Positions 5,399 to 32,646 of a stretch of DNA of 41,362 bases are shown here, one piece after another. The notes under the pieces were generated by a model, which saw only the letters and a program-made list of their open reading frames with translations, had not been told where the DNA came from and did not search any database. Source of the DNA: Oceanobacter sp. (GTDB taxonomy: Bacteria > Pseudomonadota > Gammaproteobacteria > Pseudomonadales > Oceanobacteraceae); contig NVWL01000016.1 of the NCBI GenBank assembly GCA_002733645.1, positions 30,665-72,026 on the forward strand, written 5' to 3'. Position 1 is the first letter of the stretch, and every line of letters begins with the position of its first letter. The position numbers and the translations under genes are program-made.

Positions 5399-5430
5399 TT
5401 ACGTTCAATCATTTACGTTCAATCATTTAC
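5394..5430 (-). repeat. 14-bp tandem repeat duplicating the VanZ start region (mini-ORFs)
   Basis: 2.6 copies of a 14-bp unit lie between the transferase stop and the VanZ-like start. On the minus strand each full copy gives an ATG opening a five-codon ORF (M-I-E-R-K-stop) whose TGA overlaps the next ATG as ATGA; the second mini-ORF overlaps the true start codon at 5398. The arrangement gives three chained start codons without a Shine-Dalgarno site. Confidence 0.85.
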
Positions 5431-6833
5431 TAATGCACATGCTTCCCGGTAAATCCTTTAAAGAAGGTCAAAAATACAATTTTCACATCCATCCACAAAG
5501 ACCATCGGCGAATGTAATCAAGATCGTACTCCACTCGGCCTTCCATTTTATCTAACGTATCGGTTTCACCACGAAAGCCGTTGATTTGTGCCCAACCTGT
5601 TATGCCAGGCTTCACCTTATGGCGCAGCATGTAATAAGGAATCAACTTACGGTATTCCTCATTGTGCGCAACAGCATGAGGGCGAGGCCCAACTACCGAC
5701 ATAGACCCTTGCAAGACATTAATAAACTGTGGAAGTTCATCTAACGACGTTTTGCGTATAAAAGCGCCAATGGGGGTAATGCGTGCATCACCCTTAGTTG
5801 CCTGCACCACCTTGCTGCCATTATCTTGCGTCGTCATGCTGCGGAATTTCCACACCTCAATACGACGACCATCAAGCCCGTAACGAACTTGTTTGAAAAT
5901 GGCTGGCCCACGAGATGTCAACTTAACCAAGCCTGCGATAAACAACATTGGTAATGCGATTACAGTAAGCGTACACACAGAAAAAACAATATCGAACGCA
6001 CGCTTAAGTACGTCATTGATGCCAAAGATAGGCGAATCGTACACGCTCAAGGTTTGCATACTGCCCACTTCGGTAAAACGCGCATGCAATAAGTTGTACG
6101 TGAAGAAATCAGGAATCAAATGAACAGAGGCTGTTGTGTCGCCGCACTTCTCTAAAACTTCCGCAATACGGGCCTGAGCTTTAAGTGGGAGGGAAATAAA
6201 GATCACCTCAAACTCGCCCTCTTGTGTGCGGCGAATCAAATCATCGATAGTGCCTGCCAAGTGCTCCTCAGGGAATTCATCAGCAAGACGCTCCGGTGAG
6301 CGATCATCAAAGTAACCGTAAAAGTTGTAACCAAGTTCAGGGCTTAACGCTAGCTGGCGGCGCATCTCTATGCCAGCTTCATTGATGCCTACAATAGCAA
6401 CACAGCGAGTGTTGTAGCCCTTTGCCCGTATCGACCGTAAAAACTGTCGAAACACCAAGCGCCAACTGGATAACAGCAGCAAAGAACCAACCATCCAGCC
6501 ACCAATCACAACACGGGAATAGCCCTCAGATACCTTCGCAAAGAAGCCCAGCATCATAAGACCAAACACGACAATCAACCACGCTGATGCCGTCGCTGTA
6601 ATCATACGAATAGCAGAAGTACCCCGCCAAGAGCGATACACCTCAAGAGACTCAGCAATCAGAAGATAAGAAATAGACGCAATCAAACCAGCGGCAAGGT
6701 ACAAGGGCGTGAAACCTACGCCATACACAGTAACCGCCCCAAGGAGAACAATCAGGATGATAAACAAGTCGAAAGCGCGGTAAACAACCCCGAAGCTTCC
6801 CTCATTCGAACGAATTAACCCTTGTTTACCCAT
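5430..6833 (-). CDS. Undecaprenyl-phosphate glucose phosphotransferase (EPS initiating enzyme)
   Basis: A polyisoprenyl-phosphate hexose-1-phosphate transferase that starts the repeat unit by transferring a sugar phosphate, most likely glucose-1-phosphate, to undecaprenyl phosphate. The N-terminal half has four membrane helices, then a nucleotide-binding-like central domain (CVAIVGINEAG), a fifth helix, and the catalytic bac_transf domain: KRAFDIVFS, FKQVRYGLDGR, VWKFRSM, DELPQFINVLQGSMSVVGPRP and the GWAQINGFRGET end. Length 467 aa equals typical VpsL/WcaJ-type enzymes. The ATG at 6833 was chosen because it has a strong AAGGAG site; upstream TTG/ATG starts at 6881 and 6878 have none. First gene of the six-gene export operon. 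Confidence 0.93.
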   Translation of the reverse strand: MGKQGLIRSNEGSFGVVYRAFDLFIILIVLLGAVTVYGVGFTPLYLAAGLIASISYLLIAESLEVYRSWRGTSAIRMITATASAWLIVVFGLMMLGFFAKVSEGYSRVVIGGWMVGSLLLLSSWRLVFRQFLRSIRAKGYNTRCVAIVGINEAGIEMRRQLALSPELGYNFYGYFDDRSPERLADEFPEEHLAGTIDDLIRRTQEGEFEVIFISLPLKAQARIAEVLEKCGDTTASVHLIPDFFTYNLLHARFTEVGSMQTLSVYDSPIFGINDVLKRAFDIVFSVCTLTVIALPMLFIAGLVKLTSRGPAIFKQVRYGLDGRRIEVWKFRSMTTQDNGSKVVQATKGDARITPIGAFIRKTSLDELPQFINVLQGSMSVVGPRPHAVAHNEEYRKLIPYYMLRHKVKPGITGWAQINGFRGETDTLDKMEGRVEYDLDYIRRWSLWMDVKIVFLTFFKGFTGKHVH

Positions 6834-6931
6834 ATCTACTCCTTGAAAGCTAGTCTGCACAAACTCCGAATGGCTCATCAAAGAAGGAGAATAGCCGGTC
6901 GCAATTTCAGTACTGACAGAAAGTTCCCGGA

Positions 6932-7121: not shown

Positions 7122-8531
7122 CTAAGGAATCAAAACAGATGCCTCAGGCAACATCTCCTGAACTTTACGACGCAGGGCGTATTTTGCGTCGTCATCGCCA
7201 TGTACAATACGAATTGCAGATGGCTTAAAACGCATACGCTTGACGAAATTAAGCAGGTCTTTTTGGTCAGCATGAGCGCTGTAACCAGATAACGTATGAA
7301 TACCCGCACGGATATCAATGCGTTGATCATCAATAAACACATAACCACCGCGCGGGCCGTACTGTTGAATATCACGCCCCGGTGTTCCCACGGCCTGATA
7401 ACCCACAAACACCACATCGGTGCGTTCATCGCCCAACAGAGCTTGCAGATAATTCATCATACGGCCACCAGCGCACATGCCACTGGCGGCAATCACAATC
7501 GCCGGACGGCCGGAATCTGCCAAATGTGATACGGTACGCAAATGCTCCTTATGCGACTCAATCGTCGTGAGCTGCTCAAACGACAACGGATGACGCCCCG
7601 CCCGAACCCGCTTACGTGCCTCCGCATCCCACAACGACTTGAGTGAGCGATAATGCGCGGTAAACTCAGAGGCCAAAGGAGAATCAACAATCACATCCAA
7701 CTCTCCCCAAAGCTTCGCCTTAGACGACTCCGGCGACTTATGCGTTACCCGATGAATAATCTCCTCGATTTCATACAGGAGCTCTTGCGTGCGGCCAATC
7801 GAAAACGCCGGAATCAACACCGTGCCCTTATTACTTAGGCAGCGCTCAATGGTCTTTTGTAATCGCGCACGACGAGTACGGCGGCCTTCATGGCACTTAT
7901 CACCATAGGTACTCTCAATGACCAACTCATCGCAACGATACGGTGATTTAGGCGCAGGAAGTAGCGGAGAATATGGCGCACCTAAATCCCCCGAAAACAC
8001 CACCCGCTTCGATCCGCGTAGTTTGAACTTGTCAGCACTGGTCGACAGCGCAAACTCCACATAAGCCGACCCAAGAATATGCCCGGCTCGATGCAACTTA
8101 GCCTGTACCCCAGCCACATCATCCAACGTGAACCAAGCATGATACGGCACAGCCACCAGCTGCTTTTTAAGCAATCGTAAAAAATTATTAATCAGAGACA
8201 CATCGCGAGTCACGCCGATTTTTAAGGCATCTTCCAACACCAAGGGCAACAACTGTGCGGTTGCCTCAGAGGCATAAATAGGGCCATTAAAACCCGACGC
8301 CATCAAATAAGGAATACGACCCACGTGATCGATATGGCAATGCGTTACCACCAAAGCACGAACCGCAGACACATCAAAATCAATGGGCGACTCACCCGCT
8401 TCAACACGAGACGACTCCGCCCCCTGAAACATACCGCAATCAATAAGAAAGGCATCACCAGAAGCAAGCGTTAAACGATGACAAGAACCGGTGACACCAT
8501 TCACCGCACCGTGATGAGAAATAGAATACAT
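7122..8531 (-). CDS. Beta-CASP metallo-beta-lactamase RNase-like protein
   Basis: A 469-residue metallo-beta-lactamase fold hydrolase of the beta-CASP/CPSF (YSH1-like) group. The zinc-binding HxHxDH is at residues 64-69 (THCHIDHVGR). Further ligands sit in the HILGSAY and FSGDLG motifs, with beta-CASP motifs ESTYGDK and AFSIGRTQE and the C-terminal RMMBL domain (LSGYSAHADQKDLL and the last His in VHGDDDA). Members act as RNA endo/exonucleases, but bacterial copies like this one are poorly characterised. ATG has a GGAGG site. It is separated from the EPS operon by its own intergenic region, and a link to polysaccharide synthesis is not shown. Confidence 0.92.
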   Translation of the reverse strand: MYSISHHGAVNGVTGSCHRLTLASGDAFLIDCGMFQGAESSRVEAGESPIDFDVSAVRALVVTHCHIDHVGRIPYLMASGFNGPIYASEATAQLLPLVLEDALKIGVTRDVSLINNFLRLLKKQLVAVPYHAWFTLDDVAGVQAKLHRAGHILGSAYVEFALSTSADKFKLRGSKRVVFSGDLGAPYSPLLPAPKSPYRCDELVIESTYGDKCHEGRRTRRARLQKTIERCLSNKGTVLIPAFSIGRTQELLYEIEEIIHRVTHKSPESSKAKLWGELDVIVDSPLASEFTAHYRSLKSLWDAEARKRVRAGRHPLSFEQLTTIESHKEHLRTVSHLADSGRPAIVIAASGMCAGGRMMNYLQALLGDERTDVVFVGYQAVGTPGRDIQQYGPRGGYVFIDDQRIDIRAGIHTLSGYSAHADQKDLLNFVKRMRFKPSAIRIVHGDDDAKYALRRKVQEMLPEASVLIP

Positions 8532-8711: not shown

Positions 8712-8738
8712 GTCATTCCCGCGAAGGCGGGAATCCAC
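8712..8738. repeat. REP-like palindromic repeat, copy 1
   Basis: Copy of the window's dispersed element: gtcattcccgcg aag gcgggaat core, an inverted repeat of ATTCCCGC/GCGGGAAT around a short loop, followed by ccac. It lies in the roughly 300-bp gap between the beta-CASP gene and the ugd fragment. Apart from this element I see no gene in 8532-8830. Confidence 0.88.
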
Positions 8739-8830: not shown

Positions 8831-9076
8831 TCAATCACTACCAAACAAATCTCGTGTGTACACCTTATAGGCGACATCGCGAATATCATCCGACAGACGA
8901 TTAGCAACAATTACATCAGACATGGCTTTAAACTCATTAAAATCTTTAACCACACGCGAATTAAAGAAATCGTCTTCCTCAAACACCGGTTCATATACAA
9001 GAATCTCAACCCCTTTCGCTTTGAAGTGGTTATCAATGTCACAAGCAAGAGCGTAATAATCCTCAACAGAAAACAT
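8831..9076 (-). pseudogene. Truncated duplicate of the 3' end of ugd (UDP-glucose dehydrogenase)
   Basis: The last about 60 codons are almost identical to the end of the intact ugd at 14237: [34 protein letters not shown] and [11 protein letters not shown] are shared. By eye there are about 9 mismatches in some 157 nt up to 8989, then similarity falls off, and the first about 22 residues are unrelated to Ugd. It has no NAD-binding or catalytic domain and its ATG lacks a ribosome site, so it is a remnant rather than an enzyme. Together with ugd it brackets 9077-14236, pointing to insertion by recombination in the ugd 3' end. Confidence 0.88.
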
Positions 9077-9159
9077 TTTTACTTTATTTTAAAATCAGAA
9101 ATAGTTCATCATGCTACTAACGCATAAAAAACAGTACCCAACCACTTCTGCCAAATTAA

Positions 9160-10062
9160 CTAAAAAAGCTTCCTTCCATATAAATTCCGGTAAAATATAA
9201 CCAGAGATCGCTTAAAAATTTTCTTTAAAATCACAAACAATCTGCCAAAAATCATCCACTGGCTCCGTCCATTACCAAAAGACTTATCATCAGTAGACAA
9301 CTTTAATTGATCCATCAGAAGCCTTTTATTCCCCGGATCTATAGTACTAACAACATCCTCATCTTGAGTAAATAAAGGGGGGATTACAGTTACCACCTTA
9401 CTTCTTGAACCATCCGAGATAAACCGCCAATCATCCGCTAAAAAACCTGTTTTATTTGCTAATTCCACATAGCGATTCGCAGCCTCTTTACTGATAATAT
9501 ATGCGTGCGCCCGCCATAGTTTCGTTTTTCTATCTACTAGCTCAAACAAATCATTCCCATGAATAGCACAATCGTTTCCATTGATAACCCTTCTTGTAAA
9601 AGCTGAACGCCACTGATCCAACCTAGGCCCTAGATGACAAATATAAGGATTTCCGTCTTTCGCATATACCCCGAAAAAGTCTGTCAATTCGCTCAACACT
9701 TCTAAACTTTTTCTTGTTGCAGGTATAACATCATCTTCGAAAATAACAACCTGTGAAACCATATCTTGCTCAGACAGCCACCTAATAATTTCACTATGAG
9801 AGAAAAAGCATCCCAATTCAGCTGGAACAGGGGGACGATTATAGATCTCTTGAATATCATTATATTGATCATAATTCTGCAGTTCAGAATCAGCCAAGCC
9901 TCTCATATCGCAAGCAGGCCAAAAATTATTGACAAGCTCTGGTAAAAAGCCTCTATCTATCAGAGTCTGTCTTCGCTCTCCGGCATCACCAAGCGATATT
10001 ATTGCCACAGGAATATCATCAACTTCTAACGGACTCTTATTCCAAGGAACTAGCTTACCCAT
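9160..10062 (-). CDS. Glycosyltransferase family 25 protein
   Basis: A 300-residue GT25 (LPS glycosyltransferase, LgtB/LpsA-type) enzyme, transferring a sugar (often galactose in known members) to a glycan acceptor at the cytoplasmic membrane face. Visible motifs: N-terminal VAIISLGDAGERRQ, AELGCFFSHSEIIRWL, the metal-binding acidic motif VVIFEDDVIP (about residue 107), AHAYIISKEAANRYV, and LADDWRF. The C-terminal about 60 residues are basic and hydrophobic (FGRLFVILKKIFKRSLVIFY), fitting membrane association. Good GAGGGG ribosome site. It is visibly AT-rich compared with manC/ugd, supporting recent acquisition. Last gene of the inserted cassette; donor sugar and linkage unknown. Confidence 0.9.
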   Translation of the reverse strand: MGKLVPWNKSPLEVDDIPVAIISLGDAGERRQTLIDRGFLPELVNNFWPACDMRGLADSELQNYDQYNDIQEIYNRPPVPAELGCFFSHSEIIRWLSEQDMVSQVVIFEDDVIPATRKSLEVLSELTDFFGVYAKDGNPYICHLGPRLDQWRSAFTRRVINGNDCAIHGNDLFELVDRKTKLWRAHAYIISKEAANRYVELANKTGFLADDWRFISDGSRSKVVTVIPPLFTQDEDVVSTIDPGNKRLLMDQLKLSTDDKSFGNGRSQWMIFGRLFVILKKIFKRSLVIFYRNLYGRKLF

Positions 10063-10095
10063 GATATCCCCTCAAGAACATTTTATAGTCACACT

Positions 10096-11232
10096 CTATA
10101 TAGATGAAGAGTCTTTAATAAAATCCAAACTACTCTTTCGCCCTTCATTTTTAATTTTATTGACCACCGTCCAATCAATGTTCTCAAGAACAAGAGATGA
10201 ATCAACCTGCGCGCTATCATCTACCAAACGAGATTCCAATCCAAATCTCCTCAGAATTGAGTGAAACCGCGCCAATCCTCGAGATTTATTTCCAATAACA
10301 AGAAATTGCTTATTAAATATTATCGAAAAGACACACCCATGAAAGGAATCTGTCACGACAAAATCCGCAGATTTAAAACTATTTAGCCAGTCACCAACTC
10401 TCGGATAGAATTCAGTTCTATTTTTCAACCTAGATTTCGCTCGAGTTGGATTGTTCATCATATAAAATGGTGTACTACCAAATACATTACAAACTTTTTC
10501 AACAACTCCCTCTTTCGATTCATCCATATCCAGAATGTATGCAAGCACACCACTTGGCAATACCGCTTCTGTTGAACCATCGTTTTTTATTAAATATTCG
10601 TAGTCATTGACATCAAGGAGCAGGGTTGGGTCAAGCACCACCTCCGAGTCTACATTAAAATAATCCCGCAAAAGTTCGACACCTGAATCCTCCCGAACTG
10701 ACATTGCATCAAAACGCTTGGCGAGAGGTCGACATATAGCCACCTCCTCTTCGGTGAATTCCTTTTCATCCACACCAAAAGATGCCGCATAGGCTACTCT
10801 CTTTGATTTAAGATGCAAATCATCACAAAAATCCAGAAAATAATTAGACAACTTTGGTGAATAGCACGGGCGCCAAACTTGGTCACTACCAACAAGGAAA
10901 ACATCAAAATTATTCAGCGAATAATACGATAAAAGATCTCGATCAGACTCAACCAACGGAGATAATAAAATAAAATTATCCCTAAAATATTCAAGGTTCA
11001 CACAAGGATTCCTGTTTGAGTCAAGATACTTTTCCACTCCAAATTTTGCCAGAATATTTTTAACCAGATATTTAAAGTGGGAGATAAGCCTGACTTTAAC
11101 AGGAAAATATTTCCTCCTATTCAAGGTTTCAACATCGCAACCAAGATTTTTCAAAACCAGTTGCAATGCATAAGCCTGCAGTAACCCCCCATAATTCCTA
11201 CCAAGCGGCTGTGTCAATATTGAAACCTTCAT
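10096..11232 (-). CDS. Polysaccharide pyruvyl transferase family protein
   Basis: A 378-residue member of the polysaccharide pyruvyl transferase family (CsaB/ExoV/WcaK-like), which adds ketal-linked pyruvate from phosphoenolpyruvate to a sugar and so brings negative charge. Motifs: an N-terminal KVSILTQPLGRNYGGLLQAYAL, FLVGSDQVWRP, KRVAYAASFG, DAMSVREDSGVELL, VLDPTLLLD, and the C-terminal VTDSFHGCVFSIIFNKQF with its conserved His. Start has a GAGGAT site. AT-rich. It is 15 nt from the F420-hydrogenase-beta-like gene upstream; such pairs recur in polysaccharide clusters. The specific sugar modified cannot be told. Confidence 0.93.
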   Translation of the reverse strand: MKVSILTQPLGRNYGGLLQAYALQLVLKNLGCDVETLNRRKYFPVKVRLISHFKYLVKNILAKFGVEKYLDSNRNPCVNLEYFRDNFILLSPLVESDRDLLSYYSLNNFDVFLVGSDQVWRPCYSPKLSNYFLDFCDDLHLKSKRVAYAASFGVDEKEFTEEEVAICRPLAKRFDAMSVREDSGVELLRDYFNVDSEVVLDPTLLLDVNDYEYLIKNDGSTEAVLPSGVLAYILDMDESKEGVVEKVCNVFGSTPFYMMNNPTRAKSRLKNRTEFYPRVGDWLNSFKSADFVVTDSFHGCVFSIIFNKQFLVIGNKSRGLARFHSILRRFGLESRLVDDSAQVDSSLVLENIDWTVVNKIKNEGRKSSLDFIKDSSSI

Positions 11233-11247
11233 TTACATCCTCATTTC

Positions 11248-12651
11248 TCAGTTCCCATAGAACAGTCTTTTTAATTTTGATTTCAACCTACTTTTTAATG
11301 ATACACCAAGCCTTTTATACTTTGTATAAACTGGCATCATTGATTTAACGTAGACATTAATATCTGATCGCACCTTAGCCAGATTAAAACTCTCATGAGA
11401 TAGTTCTCTCATTTTAACCCGCAGCCTTTGCTTTTCATTCTCAAGCCCCGGATTTGCACGGTGCGTCATCTTTATGCGCTTAGCAGGAACCCAGTGACCA
11501 GCCTCGGCCTCAAACGCCAATCTGTCAATGATCCCTATTCTCCGGTGACGCAATCCCGCATCCTGGGATTGCACAGCTTTCTCAACAGGAAGATCATCCA
11601 TGGCTAAACGTCCTTCCGCAAGGGCATTTGTAATCAACTGCTGCACATCCTGATTTCTGGTCACAACAACATTGGTACCATTACCATCCTGCACATATTC
11701 CGGCAGCCAGGCGTCGCCCAGTGCGATATCGGCAGTTTCGGCAAACACATCGTCACAGAAATCGCAGGCTTTGTACTTAAATGCACCTGCACCCCAATCT
11801 GTACCAAAGAGCTGGTTAGTTAGCACCACTTTTTCAGCAGAGTGACCTTTGACATACGTGTTGTAACGGTTTGCAGGCTGAGATGGATCCTTGGCTCGAA
11901 AATCTATTCCTTCAAGCTCCTGCGGGGTTATACCCATTTGCCAAGCCAGGCTTTGTGCATAATGGGCACTTTTCAGATGGCCGCATACCAAACCTACGCA
12001 GTATCGAATTCGCTCAGCGAGAATTGGCTCCTGAGCCTGGAGCAGCCGTATACTTTTAATAAAGCATGGCAACCCCACCACCACATAACGCCCAGGCTTG
12101 TTTTTCACCTCTTTCAACACTTCAGATAACTCAATTGGGTAGTAGCGGGATTTTCCACCCTTCTGGGTTTCATCCAGAGTTGCACTCACCTGATACTTAA
12201 ATGGAAGATTGTGCAGGTTTACGTCAGCATTTTCGGATTTAACGTGTACCACGTAATCCACCAAACCTTTAGAGAGAAGTTCGTTAAGTACCCACGAGCC
12301 CATTCCACCAGAACTACCCTGCTTGCGAAAATCACCTTCACTAACATGTCCAGCGAACACCCCGCTGTAATAACCAACCTGGTCATTGTGTTTGCACGTT
12401 TCAGAAAAGTGCTGTTTGGCTATTTCATCCTCATTCAGAGCCCCCGAACCAAATGGACAGATTTTTTCGTAGTCGCTTTGTGTCGTCGCAAATATATCGG
12501 AGTTTTTAAGAACAGACTGATATTGCCCATAGTCATCCATAACCATTTTGAATGGGCTTCGTTCAGGTATGGCACAAGCTCCGCAACCTACACAATAGCC
12601 ATTTTTGATAACTGTGTCGTTCAGAGCCTGGGGGCTTTGTTTGGTAGTCAC
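11248..12651 (-). CDS. Coenzyme F420 hydrogenase/dehydrogenase beta-subunit family protein
   Basis: A 467-residue iron-sulfur protein. The N-terminus has a ferredoxin-like cysteine motif (CVGCGACAIP, about residues 21-30), then the FrhB-type N-terminal domain (GSSGGMGSWVLNELL, GKSRYYPIELSEV) and C-terminal domain (VGLPCFIKSIRLL, YCVGLVCGH, YKACDFCDDVFAETADIALGDAW). Bacterial relatives are common in polysaccharide loci next to pyruvyl transferases, although these bacteria need not make F420; a redox or glycan-modifying role is presumed but unproven. Starts with GTG overlapping the flippase TGA (GTGA), so translation is coupled. Sits between wzx and the pyruvyl transferase. Confidence 0.9.
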   Translation of the reverse strand: MTTKQSPQALNDTVIKNGYCVGCGACAIPERSPFKMVMDDYGQYQSVLKNSDIFATTQSDYEKICPFGSGALNEDEIAKQHFSETCKHNDQVGYYSGVFAGHVSEGDFRKQGSSGGMGSWVLNELLSKGLVDYVVHVKSENADVNLHNLPFKYQVSATLDETQKGGKSRYYPIELSEVLKEVKNKPGRYVVVGLPCFIKSIRLLQAQEPILAERIRYCVGLVCGHLKSAHYAQSLAWQMGITPQELEGIDFRAKDPSQPANRYNTYVKGHSAEKVVLTNQLFGTDWGAGAFKYKACDFCDDVFAETADIALGDAWLPEYVQDGNGTNVVVTRNQDVQQLITNALAEGRLAMDDLPVEKAVQSQDAGLRHRRIGIIDRLAFEAEAGHWVPAKRIKMTHRANPGLENEKQRLRVKMRELSHESFNLAKVRSDINVYVKSMMPVYTKYKRLGVSLKSRLKSKLKRLFYGN

Positions 12652-14171
12652 TTTGAGGCCAATTTCCTAGTAGTTAGAAGTTTTATTAGGTCTATAATCC
12701 CGATCAACTCATTCCGTGTAGGTTTTGTCAATAAGCAAAGCAGCAGGTAAATCACAGCTGCTGCAGCAATAAAAACAGCTAAACCTGCTATTGGGTTTTG
12801 GATAAGAGTATGCTGCTTGAGGAAATGTAATGCGGCAGCCGTTAACAGTGCACATACTCCCGTAGGTAGTAATGCCTTAATGAACTCGCCAAATGTAACC
12901 GGCAGAAACCGACTAGCGTAATACAGAAATCCCGGCAAACGGATAAACACGCCAGAAAGCGCATAGGCTGTAACGACACCAAATGCACCCCAATATGAAC
13001 CAATGCCAACCGACACAATTAGAATAGAGAGAGTAATCGTCTTCCAGCGTAATAGTGCCTTAGCATTGCCTATAGCTATAAGACTAACAGCTAGAAAACC
13101 TGCAATAGGCTCCACTAACGAAAACACTGCCAGCATCTGAAAGATAGGAACAGCACCTTCCCAGCCAGAGCCAAGAAACAACTTAACAATCCAATCGGCT
13201 AAAATAGCCATAGTTAGGGTCACAAACATGGTAGCCAGCACCAGTTTCCCCATGATGGACGTGAGAGTACTACGAAGCCGCTTTGGGTCATGTGCAACCC
13301 GAGCCAGAGTTGGTTGTAATACGTTCATGACAGGCGGCAGCATCTGGCTTGAAGGTATAGAGGTGAGTACATTAGCCCTGTTAAAAAGCCCCAGCGACTG
13401 AGCACCACCAATATAACCAACAGCAAACGGTGTGACATTAGTAGCAATATACCCGATAAAGTTAGCTCCAGTCAGGTTTGCCCCGAACCCCAACAGTGGC
13501 CGTACACCGGAGCCCCGGCTCATCAACGACGGCACCCAGCGGACGATCAACCAACACATGATAGTTTTTGTTGCTATGGTACCAACAGGACTGATCACCA
13601 AGGCCCAGTACTCAAGGCCATTATAGGCTGCGGTTACACCAGCGATAATGCCTGTCGCCATGGACACAATGTCGATCACCGAGACTGCTTTAAATCGCAT
13701 CTGCCGGCGCAACAGGGCATCGTGCTGTACCGATAGCCCGCCAATCAAAAAAGTCAGGCTCATAGCAGCCATCACCAAAGTCAGACGGGGTTCGTCATAT
13801 ATGATGGCAACCAACGGTGAGATCAGGACACCCAGCAAGCACAAACCTGCGCCCAAAGCGCCGTTTACCCAGAACAGATTAGACACCTGTGCATGAGTAA
13901 TATGCTCGCGCTGAATAGTAGCCATTGAGAGACCTCCTTCCATGAACTGGAGCGCCAGCCCAGTGAACACGGTAACCATTGCAATCAGGCCGAAGTCTGA
14001 CGGCAGCAACAAACGGGCCAGTATGGCTATCGAACCCAATTGTAAGATCAGTTTGATACCCTGTGCAGCCAAAGTGATTCCCGCGCTTTTTACAGCCCGT
14101 TCTTTCAAGCCGGTTTTCAAATGATCGGTGTCGAATAACTGGTTTTTGTCTTGCAATGTAATGTCCTGCAT
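12648..14171 (-). CDS. Lipopolysaccharide/EPS repeat-unit flippase (Wzx, WzxC-like)
   Basis: A multi-helix membrane protein of the MOP/PST superfamily that moves undecaprenyl-PP-linked repeat units across the inner membrane. About 12-14 hydrophobic segments are seen; the N-terminus (LKERAVKSAGITLAAQGIKLILQLGSIAILARLLLPSDFGLIAM, broken here by description) follows the WzxC pattern, and MNVLQPTLARVAHDPKRL is typical of the family. TTG at 14204 opens the frame, but ATG 14171 (MQDITLQ) is preferred; no strong Shine-Dalgarno for either. First gene of the inserted cassette and the only full-length flippase in the window, so it probably replaces the truncated flippase at 31732. Confidence 0.9.
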   Translation of the reverse strand: MQDITLQDKNQLFDTDHLKTGLKERAVKSAGITLAAQGIKLILQLGSIAILARLLLPSDFGLIAMVTVFTGLALQFMEGGLSMATIQREHITHAQVSNLFWVNGALGAGLCLLGVLISPLVAIIYDEPRLTLVMAAMSLTFLIGGLSVQHDALLRRQMRFKAVSVIDIVSMATGIIAGVTAAYNGLEYWALVISPVGTIATKTIMCWLIVRWVPSLMSRGSGVRPLLGFGANLTGANFIGYIATNVTPFAVGYIGGAQSLGLFNRANVLTSIPSSQMLPPVMNVLQPTLARVAHDPKRLRSTLTSIMGKLVLATMFVTLTMAILADWIVKLFLGSGWEGAVPIFQMLAVFSLVEPIAGFLAVSLIAIGNAKALLRWKTITLSILIVSVGIGSYWGAFGVVTAYALSGVFIRLPGFLYYASRFLPVTFGEFIKALLPTGVCALLTAAALHFLKQHTLIQNPIAGLAVFIAAAAVIYLLLCLLTKPTRNELIGIIDLIKLLTTRKLASK

Positions 14172-14236
14172 ACAAATGTGATGCGATATAAACCGCTTAT
14201 ACAATATTTATGCTTTTTAGCTTGAAATGCGAAATT

Positions 14237-15403
14237 TCAATCACTACCAAACAAATCGCGCGTATACACCTTATCGGCGACATCACGAATATCATCCGAC
14301 AGACGATTGGCAACAATCACATCAGACATGGCTTTAAACTCATTAAAATCTTTAATCACACGCGAATTAAAGAAATCGTCCTCCTCAAACACCGGCTCGT
14401 ACACCACCACCTCGATGCCCTTCGCCTTAATACGCTTCATAATGCCCTGAATCGCCGACGCCCGGAAATTATCCGACCCCGACTTCATCACCAAACGATA
14501 AATACCCACCACCTTTGGGTTACGCTTGATAATAGAATCCGCCACAAAATCTTTGCGCGTGCTATTAGCATCCACGATGGCGCGTACAATATTACTCGGC
14601 ACATCTTCAAAGTTAGCCAACAACTGCTTGGTGTCCTTCGGCAAACAATAACCACCGTAACCAAACGATGGATTGTTGTAATGATTGCCAATGCGAGGGT
14701 CTAAACCAACCCCCTCAATAATCTGGCGGCTGTTTAAGCCGTGCGTCTCGGCGTAAGAATCTAGTTCATTAAAATAGGCAACACGCATCGCCAAGTACGT
14801 ATTTGAGAACAGCTTCACAGCTTCGGCTTCGGTGGAATCAGTAAACAGAATATCAATATTCTCTTTCACCGCGCCCTGCGCCAACAAACCCGCAAACTCC
14901 TTCGCACGCTCAGACTGCTCACCAACAATAATACGGCTTGGGTGAAGGTTATCGTACAAGGCACGACCCTCACGCAAGAACTCAGGTGAGAAAATCAAAT
15001 TAGCGCAGCCGGTGTCTTCTTTCAGGCGAGCCGTGTAACCCACAGGTACGGTAGACTTGATAACCATCACCGCATCTGGGTTAACCGAAGTAACATCGCG
15101 CACCACGCTCTCAACCGAGCTAGTATTAAAATAATTCGTGATTGGGTCGTAATCAGTAGGTGTAGCAATCACGACAAAGCGAGCACCTTTATAAGCCTCT
15201 TCTTTATCTAACGTTGCCCGAAAATTGATCTCGCGGTTCGCCAAAAACTCTTCAATCTCGGTATCGACAATCGGCGAGCGCTTATTGTTCAGCATTTCGA
15301 CCTTCTCAGGCACGATATCTACCGCCACAACCTCGTTATGCTGCGCCAACAACATCGCATTCGACAAACCAACATAGCCAGTACCGGCAATCGCAATCTT
15401 CAT
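14237..15403 (-). CDS. ugd: UDP-glucose 6-dehydrogenase
   Basis: A 388-residue NAD-dependent enzyme oxidising UDP-glucose to UDP-glucuronate, a precursor for acidic polysaccharide. N-terminal Rossmann motif [16 protein letters not shown], the VIATPTDYD and [10 protein letters not shown] loops, [20 protein letters not shown], helix with [11 protein letters not shown], and the catalytic Cys in [14 protein letters not shown]; the UDP-binding C-terminal domain ends DLFGSD. The ATG at 15403 fits family length and has an AGGA site; the frame opens nine codons earlier. Its last about 60 codons are repeated at 8831-9076. Confidence 0.95.
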
Positions 15404-15515
15404 ACGTGAACAATCCTGATCAGTAACCATAAAATTGGGAGGGATTCTAACAGCTCCGCCCAGAAAACGTTAACCGAGAAATGTTAACAACCCCGTAAAC
15501 CACTCGATAACTTCA

Positions 15516-15658: not shown

Positions 15659-16075
15659 ATGGAAACTCACGACATTCGCTGGCAGCAATGTTTTCAAAAT
15701 TTCCGACGAGCATTTACCCTACTGCGGGAAGCAATGGAAAACGACCTAGACACTCTTAATCAGCTTGAGAAAGAAGGCATTATCCAACGCTTTGAATATA
15801 CTTTTGAACTAGCTTGGAAAGTCTTAAAAGATAAAATGGAGTTCGACGGCCTTGAACTCAATCAAATTTCGCCAAAAGCAGCGGTACGACAAGCCTTCCA
15901 AGCAAAGTACATAGCCAACGCTGACTGTTGGATGCGCATGATTGGTGATAGAAACCTAATGAGCCACACTTACGACTTCGCCAAATTCGAAGCCGTCATC
16001 AGAACAATACAAGCAGAATACTTACCTATGCTAGATAAGTGGTACACGGGACTTTTAGAAGAGCTACAGCCATGA
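15659..16075 (+). CDS. HepT-like HEPN protein (HI0074 family), module 1
   Basis: A 138-residue all-helical protein of the HI0074 nucleotidyltransferase-substrate-binding family (FNFRRAFTLLREA, QRFEYTFELAWKVLKD, AVRQAFQAKYI). It carries the RX4HXY motif (R98-NLMS-H103-T-Y105), the RNase active-site signature of HEPN toxins such as HepT in type VII toxin-antitoxin systems, where the partner inactivates it by adding AMP to the Tyr. The stop overlaps the next ATG (ATGA). Toxic RNase is the inferred role; HI0074-type proteins have also been described only as nucleotidyltransferase partners. Confidence 0.88.
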   Translation: METHDIRWQQCFQNFRRAFTLLREAMENDLDTLNQLEKEGIIQRFEYTFELAWKVLKDKMEFDGLELNQISPKAAVRQAFQAKYIANADCWMRMIGDRNLMSHTYDFAKFEAVIRTIQAEYLPMLDKWYTGLLEELQP

Positions 16076-16371
16076 CTTATACCCTGCCGGAGCACATCAA
16101 AACAAAAATCCGTGAGATTATAGGTCACTACACACAAGTTGAACGTGCGACTTTATTTGGATCTCATGCCAAAGGAACAGCCACCGAAAGGAGTGATGTT
16201 GACATAGCGCTTCAAGGCCAAAAACTCGATCGCTTCGTGATCGCAGACATAGCCTTATCGTTTGATGATAGCGACATTCCTCTGCAGATAGACCTACAAA
16301 ACTATTCTGAAATCAAAAACACTGCACTAAAAGAACACATTGATCGTATTGGTATCCAACTATATCCATAA
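16072..16371 (+). CDS. MntA-like nucleotidyltransferase, module 1
   Basis: A 99-residue minimal nucleotidyltransferase (HI0073/MntA type). The active-site signature GSX10DXD is intact (G30, S31, D42, D44 in LFGSHAKGTATERSDVDIAL). In type VII systems the enzyme AMPylates the HEPN toxin's Tyr and so acts as antitoxin. ATG 16072 overlaps the HepT-like stop and is better than the upstream in-frame ATG at 16039, which lies inside the previous gene. Confidence 0.9.
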   Translation: MTYTLPEHIKTKIREIIGHYTQVERATLFGSHAKGTATERSDVDIALQGQKLDRFVIADIALSFDDSDIPLQIDLQNYSEIKNTALKEHIDRIGIQLYP

Positions 16372-16403
16372 ATGATTAAGGCACTTCAGAATAATACAGT
16401 CAT

Positions 16404-16460
16404 GCTCGGCTTTGGCTTCCTGTGTCGCCCTATCTCCTGCATCCATTCAGTCTTGTGCGT
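16404..16460. repeat. Degenerate copy of the composite palindromic repeat
   Basis: Between the two HepT/MntA modules, tcggctttggcttcctgtg and following bases align with 32583-32637 (tcggctttggcatcctgcg, then cctgca and cagtc blocks) with scattered changes. It is an old copy of the dispersed element family. Confidence 0.65.
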
Positions 16461-16534
16461 GAGTCCTCTAACTCACTGGCTATGCAATACCAGCAACTAT
16501 ATACTTTGCGAAAGCATCAAACCGTAGATCTCCC

Positions 16535-16951
16535 ATGAACTTAGACATCCGCTGGCATCAACGCCTTGCTAATTATGCCTCGGTTTTCAACGAACTTGAT
16601 GAAGCCGTTGCGCTTAACAATCAACGACCACTCAGTAAATTAGAAGAACAAGGTCTAATTCAAGCATTTGAATACACCTACGAGCTAGCGTGGAACAGCA
16701 TTAAAGACTTCTACCAAGCCCAAGATGAAAATGATATTCAAGGTAGCCGTGATGCAATTCGAATGGCATTCCGCCGAGGGCTAATCACCGACGGTGATCT
16801 TTGGATGGAGATGATTAAAAGCCGAACGCTCACCTCACACACATACAACCGCGAAACAGCGCGTTTAATTGTTAACCAAATATTAAACAAGTATCACAAC
16901 GCATTTAAACTTCTCTTAACGAACCTGCAACACAGAAAACAAGAAGAGTGA
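16535..16951 (+). CDS. HepT-like HEPN protein (HI0074 family), module 2
   Basis: A 138-residue paralogue of the module 1 protein with the same helical layout (QAFEYTYELAWNSIKDFY, DAIRMAFRRGLI) but clearly diverged in sequence. RX4HXY is intact (R97-TLTS-H102-T-Y104). Stop overlaps the partner's start. Divergence suggests an old duplication or separate acquisition rather than a recent tandem copy. Confidence 0.88.
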   Translation: MNLDIRWHQRLANYASVFNELDEAVALNNQRPLSKLEEQGLIQAFEYTYELAWNSIKDFYQAQDENDIQGSRDAIRMAFRRGLITDGDLWMEMIKSRTLTSHTYNRETARLIVNQILNKYHNAFKLLLTNLQHRKQEE

Positions 16952-17256
16952 TGAAAACGCTGCTAAACACAGGATTAAAAACCGAAGACATTGAAGCCAT
17001 TAAGCGCGTTATGCAGCAACACCCTGGAATTATCAGCGCTCTACTTTATGGCTCCAGAGCCAAAGGTAATTACAGGAATAACTCCGACATAGACCTCTGC
17101 TTGATAGCCCCAGACATCAACTACAGCGAATTTAGCCAAATATCGCTTGAACTTGACGACCTGATGCTGCCCTACGACATTGATCTTAGCCTGCAACACC
17201 ACATCGAAAACCAAGCGCTGTTAGAACATATCGCAAGAGTAGGAAAACCGTTGTGA
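16951..17256 (+). CDS. MntA-like nucleotidyltransferase, module 2
   Basis: A 101-residue nucleotidyltransferase with intact GSX10DXD (G34, S35, D46, D48 in LYGSRAKGNYRNNSDIDLCL) and a third acidic strand (YDIDLSL). ATG at 16951 shares a base with the HepT-like TGA and follows AGAAGAG; a GTG one codon earlier is possible. Likely partner/antitoxin of the preceding HEPN protein. Confidence 0.88.
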   Translation: MKTLLNTGLKTEDIEAIKRVMQQHPGIISALLYGSRAKGNYRNNSDIDLCLIAPDINYSEFSQISLELDDLMLPYDIDLSLQHHIENQALLEHIARVGKPL

Positions 17257-18795: not shown

Positions 18796-18886
18796 CTATT
18801 CCCGCGAAGGCGGGAATCCATATAGAAGCGACGCAGGATGCCAAAGCCGAGGCGGGAATCCATATAAAAGCGGCTCAAGTGCCGCT
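18796..18886. repeat. REP-like repeat pair and terminator downstream of manC
   Basis: A full palindrome copy (attcccgcgaaggcgggaat, 18798-18817) is followed by a partial composite unit (cgacgcaggatgccaaagcc then gaggcgggaatcca, 18828-18862) that is the reverse complement of 32571-32602. It occupies the gap between manB and manC. Confidence 0.88.
18864..18886 (-). terminator. Intrinsic terminator after manC
   Basis: On the minus strand AGCGGC-ACTTGA-GCCGCT is followed by TTTATAT, directly after the manC stop codon. Separates manC from manB transcriptionally at least in part. Confidence 0.65.
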
Positions 18887-18900
18887 ATATTAAACCCGCT

Positions 18901-20409
18901 TTAAGCCCGACCGTACTTATCCTCAAAACGCACGATGTCGTCTTCACCTAAATACGACCCTGACTGCACCTCGATCATCTCCAGCTCAACCTTACCCGGA
19001 TTCTCCAGCGCATGAATCTGGCCAATAGGGATATAGGTAGATTCGTTCTCGGTCACTAAGAAGGTGTCATCGCCATTCGTGACTTTTGCCGTACCCGATA
19101 CCACCACCCAGTGCTCGGCACGGTGATGATGCATTTGTACCGACAACTTAGCCCCAGGCTTCACGGTAATGCGTTTTACCTGATAGCGTTCGCCGTTATC
19201 AATGCTGTCGTAAATACCCCATGGGCGATACACCTCACGGTGCTGGTGATGCTGCTGGCCACCGCGTGCTTTAATCTCCGCCACAATCTTTTTAACGTCT
19301 TGTACTTTATCTTTATGCGCAACTAACAGGGCATCTTTGGTATCAACAATCACCAGATCATCCACACCTAACGTTGTCACCAAACGATCCGACGTACTCA
19401 CTAAGCTATTGCGCGAGTCATTTAAAATCGTATCACCAGTGCCTTTGCCTGCATGAAGCACAGCATTGCCATGTTCACACTTCTCTGCAATTTCCCACAA
19501 GGCCGACCAACTCCCCACATCACTCCAACCGGCATCCAGCGGTGCAACCACAACTTGAGGCTCGCCCTCAAGTGCGCCACTATTTTGAGAGCAAAGTGGC
19601 TCCATCACCGCGTAATCAATAGAATCGTCTGGGCAGGCTTTAAATGCATCAGCATCCACTCGTACAAAATCAAAATCGCTTTCGGTATTCGCCATCGCCG
19701 CGTCACACGCCGCGTACATCTCAGGGCTAAAACGCTTTAACTCCTCAAGGTAACGGTCAGCACGTACCATAAACATGCCGCTATTCCAATAGTATTTACC
19801 TGAATCTAAATACGCTTGGGCGGTGGCCGCATCTGGCTTTTCTACAAACTGTTCAACCGCATACAAACCGGCAGATTCATTACCTGCCTTGATATAGCCA
19901 TAACCCGTAGCCGCCTCAGTAGGCACAATACCCAAGGTACCGAATTTACCCGCTTGAACTTCTGGCAAGAGCGCCGCCGCTGCTTTCTGAAATGCAGCGG
20001 TGTCTTTAATCACGTGATCGGCTGCCAACACCAACAACACAGGGGCTTCGCTATTCCCGCTTTTTTTCTCGTCATTCCCGCGAAGGCGGGAATCCACATC
20101 ACCCGCCCCCGAATCACGCAACGCCTGAAACGCCGCCAACGCAATCGCTGGTGCTGTATTACGCCCCACCGGCTCAAGCATAATGCGGCCTTGAGTATTC
20201 ATTTGGCGCAGTTGCTCAGCCACCAAAAAGCGGTGTTCTTCATTACTAATAACAATAGGAGCCACATCACTTAAACCATTCAAACGAGCTAAGGTTTGCT
20301 GCAGCATGGTTTGGTCGTAACCCAACGACAAAAACTGCTTAGGAAACGCCGTACGTGACAACGGCCATAAACGAGTGCCGGAGCCACCGGCCATAATAAC
20401 GGGAATCAT
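18901..20409 (-). CDS. manC: Mannose-1-phosphate guanylyltransferase / mannose-6-phosphate isomerase, with in-frame repeat insertion
   Basis: A bifunctional type II enzyme making GDP-mannose and interconverting fructose-6-P and mannose-6-P. N-terminal nucleotidyltransferase: [49 protein letters not shown]; linker with [11 protein letters not shown]-terminal cupin isomerase: [55 protein letters not shown]. The ATG at 20409 gives the normal N-terminus; the frame opens at a TTG five codons before. Residues about 104-121 ([18 protein letters not shown]) are absent from ordinary family members and are encoded by a palindromic repeat at 20071-20097 placed in frame before the LVLAADHVI strand. Confidence 0.94.
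20051..20105. repeat. Palindromic repeat inserted inside manC
   Basis: The same gtcattcccgcgaaggcggg core as at 8712 lies within the manC reading frame (20071-20097), flanked by a partial second copy (ctattcccgc, 20051-20060). It keeps the frame and encodes a short polar peptide with the VDSRLRGND signature. Confidence 0.92.
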
Positions 20410-23403: not shown

Positions 23404-23973
23404 CTAACCAATGAGGTCCTCAGAAAATACAAGGCCACTTAAACAGTTAACATCTACCAAGCTAACGAACTCTCTCGTACAAAAAAGCGTTGAACACCTA
23501 TCAAACCGAGTTTTAAAAATCAGTTTACTAGCCGTTTCCTCCTCAATAAAATGAAGAGATTTCAACCCCTGCCAAACGCCATTAACAATATTAGATGAAC
23601 TACGTGATTTATCTGCTCTGATAGAATCTAAACAGTTAAAAATTTTAAATTTTTCATCATTAACGGAAACATCCAAGAATTCACCAAATGGTTTTAAGTA
23701 CCCACAAAGGCATTCATATGCATGTGGAGAAAGTACCAAGTAAACTTCATTCCACAATGTTAGATCCGGTCGCGCGGAATTATTCTCTGCACCGTCATCG
23801 GCAATAAATTCAGCAGAAATATTGGGCCATATTCCCGCCAGAGACTTAAGATCCCAACTGCAAATGTCAAACTCTTCGGGTGTCAGCTTGCCATCTAACG
23901 CCTCTATAAGTTCAAAAGGATCAAGGTCGAAATCATGATAAACCTGAACATTTTTATCAAGCCTATAAATCAT
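23404..23973 (-). CDS. Probable immunity protein for the AHH nuclease (Imm11/DUF1629-like)
   Basis: A 189-residue acidic, soluble protein without signal peptide. The central part (NEVYLVLSPHAYECLCGYL then FKIFNCLDS) is reminiscent of the DUF1629/Imm11 immunity fold, but the match is by eye only. ATG overlaps the toxin stop by one base (TAATG), the order expected of toxin then immunity. Neutralising the adjacent AHH nuclease is the inferred role. AT-richer than manB/manC. Confidence 0.65.
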   Translation of the reverse strand: MIYRLDKNVQVYHDFDLDPFELIEALDGKLTPEEFDICSWDLKSLAGIWPNISAEFIADDGAENNSARPDLTLWNEVYLVLSPHAYECLCGYLKPFGEFLDVSVNDEKFKIFNCLDSIRADKSRSSSNIVNGVWQGLKSLHFIEEETASKLIFKTRFDRCSTLFCTREFVSLVDVNCLSGLVFSEDLIG

Positions 23974-24713
23974 TATGGTATCCGCCCTATCAGTTTATTA
24001 AATTCAGCCGTCGTAACTTCAAGAGGTTGCTTACCATACTTTAAGTCCTCACGAATACCCCACAGTTTAGACCTTAACTCAAGTTCTGATGATAAATAAC
24101 GAATAGATCTATAGACCCAACGCTCATAATTCTTTGTATGTATTCTCAAATGCGGAGGACATTTAGGCATAGCCCAATGCCCCAAATCTTTATCTTCTCT
24201 AGGCATCCATACGCCATTATCCGGATCATTGATACGAATATTGTACGTAAACAATTTAAGTCGTGCCCTTTTAGTGTCTGAGAGTGTGAGTTTACCGCGC
24301 CCCTCCACAATATGATGAGCACTGTATCGATCACTTGGCTGAGCCCTGCCAACACGCCGAAGATTTTTTTCTAAAACAGAGGTTGGGTGGTGCGCCTCCG
24401 CATTACACTTTTTAATCCTCTCTGTTGAGGTTAAGGAGCGATATTCATCTCTGTATTCTCTTAACAAGAGCTGCTCCTCAACGTCAATCATGGACATTAT
24501 GCGGTTATGTTCAAGATCAAGTAGTACCTTTGCTTCTTTTAATTCAGTTAGCCTGTCACTCCTCTCCTCAGGCGTTTCGTTAGGTGCTTTACACTTACGA
24601 TAGTAGTAGTTTTTACATTTAGTTTCGTATTGATAAATCGACAAGTCTAAAGGTGATAATTCCCAAACCTCAGGCTCTGTTTGCCTCCCTGCTACATACG
24701 ATCTATTAATCAC
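23973..24713 (-). CDS. AHH-family HNH-like nuclease toxin domain protein
   Basis: A 246-residue protein. The N-terminal half is charged and helical, with a coiled-coil-like stretch (about 45-115). The C-terminal half has the AHH nuclease signature: SAHHIVEGRGKL (about 145), INDPDNGVWMPR, then a conserved His with HTKNYERWVYRSI. AHH domains are toxin modules of polymorphic and contact-dependent/T6SS systems that cleave nucleic acid. No PAAR, RHS or signal sequence is present, so this is a stand-alone or cargo effector. Starts with GTG four bases after the fcl stop, using GAGGG in the fcl end as ribosome site; the immunity candidate overlaps its stop. Confidence 0.85.
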   Translation of the reverse strand: MINRSYVAGRQTEPEVWELSPLDLSIYQYETKCKNYYYRKCKAPNETPEERSDRLTELKEAKVLLDLEHNRIMSMIDVEEQLLLREYRDEYRSLTSTERIKKCNAEAHHPTSVLEKNLRRVGRAQPSDRYSAHHIVEGRGKLTLSDTKRARLKLFTYNIRINDPDNGVWMPREDKDLGHWAMPKCPPHLRIHTKNYERWVYRSIRYLSSELELRSKLWGIREDLKYGKQPLEVTTAEFNKLIGRIP

Positions 24714-32493: not shown

Positions 32494-32646
32494 TGGATTC
32501 CCGCCTTCGCGGGAATGACGGTCTAACTTATGGATTCCCGCCTTAGTTAGCAGCGTGCTTTCCCTGCCAAATGGTTTCCCGCCTCGGCTTTGGCATCCTG
32601 CGTCGTTCTACCTCCTGCAACCTTGCAGTCGTTCGCGGGAATGACG
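32494..32646. repeat. Cluster of REP-like and composite repeats
   Basis: Full palindrome copy at 32494-32519, partial copy 32531-32544, then composite unit 32571-32646: gcctcggctttggcatcctg, an inner perfect hairpin CTGCAA-CC-TTGCAG (about 32616-32629), and cgcgggaatgacg. It fills the gap between the DHH gene and the truncated wzx and is the reverse complement of sequence at 18828-18862. Confidence 0.88.

Follow-up and report, generated by a model that had tools for sequence, protein, structure and literature searches.

The closest described parallel to the locus reported here is the cps island of Neisseria meningitidis, in which Regions D and D' carry an intact galE1 and a truncated galE2, and in which the truncated gene is proposed to be the remnant of the recipient's own galE, left behind when the island entered it by recombination (PMC5349592). 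In Vibrio, rjg forms the right border of O/K-antigen loci (PMC2987987, PMC7829505), although it is not always the border, and frequent insertions after ugd have been interpreted as high recombination activity (PMC7829505). The cps locus of Klebsiella pneumoniae lies between galF and ugd and changes by recombination, with breakpoints thought to fall near or within the locus (PMC4453057). Here we describe a 41,362-nucleotide (nt) stretch of DNA from Oceanobacter sp. (contig NVWL01000016.1, positions 30,665 to 72,026; the window) in which four genes are enclosed between an intact ugd, encoding UDP-glucose 6-dehydrogenase, and a 5'-truncated ugd end (the stub) that lies beside an rjg-like gene. 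Recombination at the ugd-rjg end of a locus for surface polysaccharide probably left this arrangement as its scar.

The likeness to the meningococcal island is twofold. In each case a polysaccharide block is bordered by a sugar-nucleotide gene in two copies, one intact and the other 5'-truncated, and in each case the truncated copy sits at the place of that gene in the empty locus; an intact ugd is found within 1 kb of rjg in 7 of the 15 genomes of the family in which ugd lies upstream of rjg, implying that the stub occupies the spot where a ugd tail once met rjg. In contrast, the meningococcal repeats are inverted and larger, belong to galE, allow the block to invert and enclose the whole synthesis and transport island, whereas those described here are direct and short, belong to ugd, lie on the minus strand in both copies and enclose four genes. 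The Vibrio O/K loci share with this one a variable polysaccharide region ending at rjg, and have ugd among their 3' flank genes, but their left border is gmhD (hldD) and the sections available describe no ugd stub. Klebsiella likewise has conserved end genes, including ugd, and a locus changed by recombination, but ugd is there the outer flank and, again in the sections available, no stub is described. Literature searches for truncated or duplicated ugd gave no report of a ugd stub, the matches being to animal UGDH and to the Vibrio, Neisseria and Klebsiella parallels; among the matches listed for Thalassolituus with polysaccharide or O-antigen, nothing concerned the ugd-rjg locus. By analogy, the mechanism would be the one already described in meningococcus, in another bacterial group and at another gene.

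A repeat search of the window found a single long direct repeat, the pair of ugd 3' ends at 8831-9022 and 14237-14428 (192 nt, 89% identity, spacing 5406), in agreement with a preliminary description of this DNA in which the end was said to occur twice, with similarity starting at the stop codon; past that codon the copies agree at 18 of 60 bases. Counted from the stop codon, the copies differ at nine positions in 158 nt (94.3% identity) and then at 12 in the adjoining 34 nt. The identity of about 94% previously given thus holds for the 158-nt core; it falls to 92.4% over 170 nt and does not extend to the whole repeat. The frame of the stub has an ATG and only its final 64 codons are ugd. The 18 codons 5' of these have no convincing match to anything, and the 30-residue start of the stub is absent from the other 380 genomes of the order that were searched (381 including the host). 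Further Ugd matches in the host genome (3.88 Mb) are distant, at 26-32% identity. The open reading frame (ORF) of the intact ugd opens at 15430, with homology only from 15403, and its product is 84-88% identical in amino acid sequence to those of seven of eight same-genus genomes. A collapsed-repeat artefact of assembly was considered and is unlikely, because the copies are 11% different and both lie within one contig.

The stub is a mosaic. The best single breakpoint falls 159 nt from the stop codon, and its score was reached in 3 of 20000 shuffles of sites and in 11 of 20000 shuffles of codons. In the core, the stub is 65-78% identical to 13 relatives and the resident ugd 66-77% identical to the same 13; in the 34-nt block, the stub is 65-79% identical to relatives, compared with 74-85% for the resident ugd and the 13, so that the block is not a fast-evolving part of the gene. 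The translated block still aligns with the Ugd protein, implying that it is genuine ugd. Synonymous changes account for seven of the nine differing codons in the core and six of nine in the block, from which we infer that the copies diverged as working genes. One aspartate codon in ugd is a tyrosine codon in the stub. Judged from these comparisons, the mosaic fits a crossover between a cassette-borne foreign ugd end and a species-native tail. Local duplication, in which ugd or its end was copied in place, sugar genes were inserted later and one copy decayed, would require no foreign ugd and would agree with the core, where neither copy is as similar to any of the 13 relatives as the two are to one another (94%). 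It does not account for the clustering of differences in the 34-nt block, however, and the mostly synonymous changes are unlike decay: the probability of seven in nine is 0.001, 0.016 or 0.09 for assumed expectations of 24%, 37% or 50%, respectively. We consider local duplication improbable.

The place of the stub was compared in 44 genomes of the family, one per species and the host among them, so that every comparison is with another species; the genomes are here given G numbers. A relative of rjg is present at E<=1e-90 in 25 of these, with none at that cut-off in 19, and in 15 of the 25 ugd lies upstream of rjg on the same contig and strand. The gap between them is below 1 kb in seven (47 bp in G002, 111 in G028, 165 in G004, about 273 in G023, 280 in G022, 404 in G008 and 826 in G024). 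Elsewhere it measures 1.4 kb in G030, with one long ORF that has no Pfam match; 5.0 kb in G034, with a DUF222/HNH gene and two ORFs without a match; 5.7 kb in the host genome; 6.4 kb in Thalassolituus maritimus (G001, a same-genus genome); 10.8 kb in G025, where ugd is interrupted by the contig end and rml genes, an epimerase, a MatE-like gene, DUF1501 and DUF1800 follow; and 16.9, 17.0 and 22.4 kb in G035, G038 and G037, in which ten ORFs scanned, a subset of those present, include glycosyltransferases, flippases, an aminotransferase, Asn_synthase and a sugar transferase. The order is reversed, with rjg before ugd, in G007 and G011; the two genes are far apart or on separate contigs in G005, G026, G029, G040 and G041; and rjg is without a close ugd in G006, G012 and G021. 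Short ugd-rjg adjacency is common, and the content of the slot is variable. The comparison of relatives suggested in the preliminary description therefore shows a slot that is empty in some genomes and differently filled in others, rather than one order everywhere with a conserved fragment. The clearest pair is T. maritimus and G004, judged close from their protein identities (ugd 99%, rjg 94%, pgm 96%), yet with a 6.4-kb cassette in one and 165 bp in the other.

Several other features of the slot were seen in these genomes. In G007 (L089:937-3609) and G011 (L109:7943-10663), ugd sits between rjg and the wcaJ-like gene, that is, moved across rjg. In G038, rjg is present twice on one strand at a spacing of about 4.2 kb (L123:3949-5352 and 9585-11042) and a third time on another contig, so the other border gene can be duplicated as well. 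Arrays or copies of a further intergenic repeat (GTGGGAGCTATTCAGCCAGC...) lie at the right edge of the slot (L007:9201-10000; the end of L088; L020:9840-10000), and the G005 contig carrying ugd terminates in a copy of it.

The two ends of the cassette differ in character. Its genes, which Pfam assigns to the families previously named (wzx, an F420-beta-like gene, a pyruvyltransferase and a GT25, with the beta-CASP gene next door), are AT-rich, as had been said, only in the right half: GC content is 47.8% in wzx and 45.8% in the FrhB-like gene, compared with 47.2% in ugd and 45.1% in the window, and the AT-richness is limited to the pyruvyltransferase, GT25 and the 5' part of the stub. On the left, T. 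maritimus has a homologous ugd-wzx junction, intergenic DNA included, and the 69% amino acid identity of wzx between the two species falls among the 63-88% of neighbouring genes. Towards the right the contents diverge, with FrhB, pyruvyltransferase and GT25 here and a phosphodiesterase-like gene, a pyruvyltransferase (45%) and a GT2 in T. maritimus. The shared junction suggests that the genus has long had the wzx end, whereas the right end appears to have been exchanged, and it is only this right half that looks foreign. The earlier proposal of a cassette swapped in at ugd is thus borne out in part, by the variable slot and by the breakpoint inside ugd, but not in the sense that all four genes entered as one block; the decoration role and the change of polysaccharide structure that it also named are predicted from gene family.

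An older history would go further, with ugd-wzx and part of the cassette inherited in the genus and lost in relatives, and with the stub left by a later, unrelated rearrangement of the right edge. The homologous junction and the wzx identity both agree with this, but the several genomes with an empty slot would each have to have lost these genes, the native-type ugd tail beside rjg would need a source of its own, and this history appears unlikely. Campbell-type integration, in which circular DNA carrying a ugd end and the cassette entered the resident ugd by a single crossover in one step, correctly predicts a full upstream copy and a 5'-truncated downstream copy in direct orientation, and the foreign-to-native switch in the stub would then be the crossover itself. 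Among the Pfam matches of the window ORFs scanned, however, there is no plasmid, integrase, phage or transposon family, and the shared ugd-wzx junction is left unexplained; to this route, too, we would assign little probability. That the stub is a small working gene for a UDP-binding domain is very improbable, since its open frame with ATG and its mostly synonymous differences from ugd are outweighed by a start unmatched in the other 380 genomes of the order that were searched, a partial domain match below cut-off (20.9 versus 30 bits) and the aspartate-to-tyrosine change.

The recombination that we favour may be set out as follows. The ancestral order would have been ugd directly before rjg, as is observed in relatives. 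DNA carrying ugd-wzx and further sugar-coat genes would have come into the host, and its right-hand crossover would have fallen within the ugd copy beside rjg, at the breakpoint observed about 159 nt before the stop. Of the resident copy, the tail would have remained beside rjg as the stub, with 34 nt of foreign ugd from the cassette at its 5' end; a single complete ugd would have been kept, while the redundant second copy was broken, presumably by erosion. Recombination between the direct repeats could drop the cassette again, restoring the empty ugd-rjg state of relatives. Judged by gene family, a flippase and the means of adding a pyruvyl group and a sugar would come with the cassette.

A number of observations weigh against this account. 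The foreign piece, at 34 nt, is very short, and no donor was found for it; a donor search by way of GT25 gave two weak relatives (39% and 35%) among the other 380 genomes of the order. Identity of the window ugd to relatives in 150-nt sliding windows shows no clear switch of nearest relative. The slot of T. maritimus is filled and has no ugd stub, so that recombination in ugd is not the sole way into it, and, given the shared ugd-wzx junction, part of the cassette may be inherited. T. maritimus and G004 also differ further out (wcaJ 87%, Wzz/kinase 72%, barrel 53%), implying that the slot is not the sole variable part. The three ORFs scanned in the G034 slot include no sugar genes, and the slot is thus not specific to polysaccharide cassettes.

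Table 1. Positions in the window of the two ugd copies, the genes that they enclose and the right-hand border.
Feature	Position	Strand	Basis and remarks
wcaJ-like sugar transferase, conserved neighbour past rjg	5430..6881	-	NCBIfam WcaJ_sugtrans 536 bits, cut-off 411; follows rjg in relatives
rjg-like beta-CASP/RMMBL gene, right border of slot	7122..8531	-	Pfam Beta-Casp, RMMBL, Lactamase_B; 72-84% amino acid identity in same-genus genomes
Palindrome ATTCCC-N8-GGGAAT (dRS3-like), spacer between stub and rjg	8715..8734	.	Pattern match
ugd stub, 5'-truncated, 81-codon frame	8831..9076	-	Pfam UDPG_MGDP_dh_C, sub-threshold
Native-like ugd tail of stub (158 nt)	8831..8988	-	94% to resident ugd
Putative foreign ugd segment of stub (34 nt), breakpoint about 8989	8989..9022	-	65% to resident ugd
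GT25 glycosyltransferase, AT-rich	9160..10062	-	Pfam Glyco_transf_25, E 2.5e-10; GC 39.0%
Polysaccharide pyruvyltransferase, AT-rich	10096..11232	-	Pfam PS_pyruv_trans, E 2.8e-33; GC 38.1%
FrhB/FdhB-like (F420-beta-like) gene	11248..12651	-	Pfam FrhB_FdhB_C and FrhB_FdhB_N
wzx-type flippase	12648..14204	-	Pfam Polysacc_synt_3, E 9.6e-74; 69% amino acid identity to post-ugd wzx of T. maritimus
ugd-wzx junction, homologous to T. maritimus junction	14205..14236	-	Alignment including wzx start scores 148; maximum of 200 shuffles 65
ugd 3' end inside intact gene (left repeat in coding order)	14237..14428	-	Direct repeat, 89% over 192 nt
Intact ugd (UDP-glucose 6-dehydrogenase, 388 amino acids)	14237..15403	-	Pfam UDPG_MGDP_dh N, middle and C; NCBIfam PRK15057 704 bits, cut-off 757

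The name rjg is taken from the Vibrio gene by likeness; the beta-CASP/RMMBL gene of the window is 47-48% identical (tblastn) to the presumed rjg genes at the Vibrio loci L027-L029. The top NCBIfam match of the rjg-like protein is Cas14, the type VII CRISPR beta-CASP nuclease, at 315 bits against a cut-off of 800, making it a relative and not a member. Beyond rjg lie wcaJ, a weak VanZ-like match, an outer-membrane barrel, a polysaccharide exporter and a Wzz/tyrosine-kinase gene, and the locus on the ugd side includes pgm, manC, nudix, fcl, gmd and glycosyltransferases. Directly upstream of ugd, on the plus strand (15659-17256), an NTase_sub_bind (HEPN-like) gene is paired with a Polbeta nucleotidyltransferase gene twice in tandem, and both pairs resemble MNT-HEPN toxin-antitoxin pairs by family; inside the polysaccharide locus (23404-24713), an AHH-family nuclease gene and a small companion ORF without a Pfam match are possibly a toxin-immunity pair. 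The palindrome ATTCCC-N8-GGGAAT, a pattern for the dRS3 elements of Neisseria (PMC2911385), occurs four times in the window (8715-8734, 18798-18817, 20074-20093 and 32497-32516) against 0.11 expected, and eight times genome-wide; in G008, three of five such palindromes fall in the ugd-rjg gap.

In some Vibrionaceae and some other Pseudomonadales, too, polysaccharide genes are bordered by ugd copies, whole or broken. In G036, from another genus of the same family, a ugd in which roughly the final twenty codons have been replaced (third-position GC content, GC3, 0.61) heads a block comprising a flippase-like ORF without a Pfam match, FrhB in two pieces, a pyruvyltransferase, EpsG, a GT2, more ORFs and another GT2, and the block closes with a second ugd, complete and AT-rich (GC3 0.38), that is 69% identical to the first. 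This is a mirror image of the host layout and points to cassettes being able to arrive with a ugd of their own. G125, from another family, has the order ugd, epimerase, ugd stub, GT2. In sample surveys of the order and of the Vibrio family, a ugd end was found in 110 of 390 order genomes, with a copy in a frame of <=110 codons in four (the host, G000, with G125, G272 and G418); these short copies lie among sugar genes in G125 and G272, whereas the two in G418 apparently do not, ORF starts there being read by eye. In the Vibrio family, 169 of 197 genomes have a ugd-end match, and at least 11, counted by eye among the matches listed, have a pair of ugd ends that share contig and strand and lie no more than 40 kb apart. 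Three of those 11 were inspected (G564, G557 and G500), together with G600, which has a truncated copy: in G564, sugar genes separate a frame-broken ugd from an intact one beside rjg, and in G557 two complete ugd enclose rjg and other genes. We tentatively raise the possibility, which we regard as doubtful, that in several Gammaproteobacteria ugd serves repeatedly as a portable arm of homology where polysaccharide loci end at ugd-rjg. Cassettes would carry their own ugd end and recombine into the ugd already present; the direct repeats left behind would allow the insertion to be reversed, and in some species dRS3-like palindromes would cluster in the same slot.

Finally, the locus illustrates, through a visible breakpoint, a route by which polysaccharide cassettes can come into a slot conserved within a marine genus. 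It also provides a sequence flag, the 3' stub of ugd next to rjg, by which such exchanges may be found elsewhere. Surface sugars influence phage attack and attachment, and the slot, if it is reversible, would matter for both.

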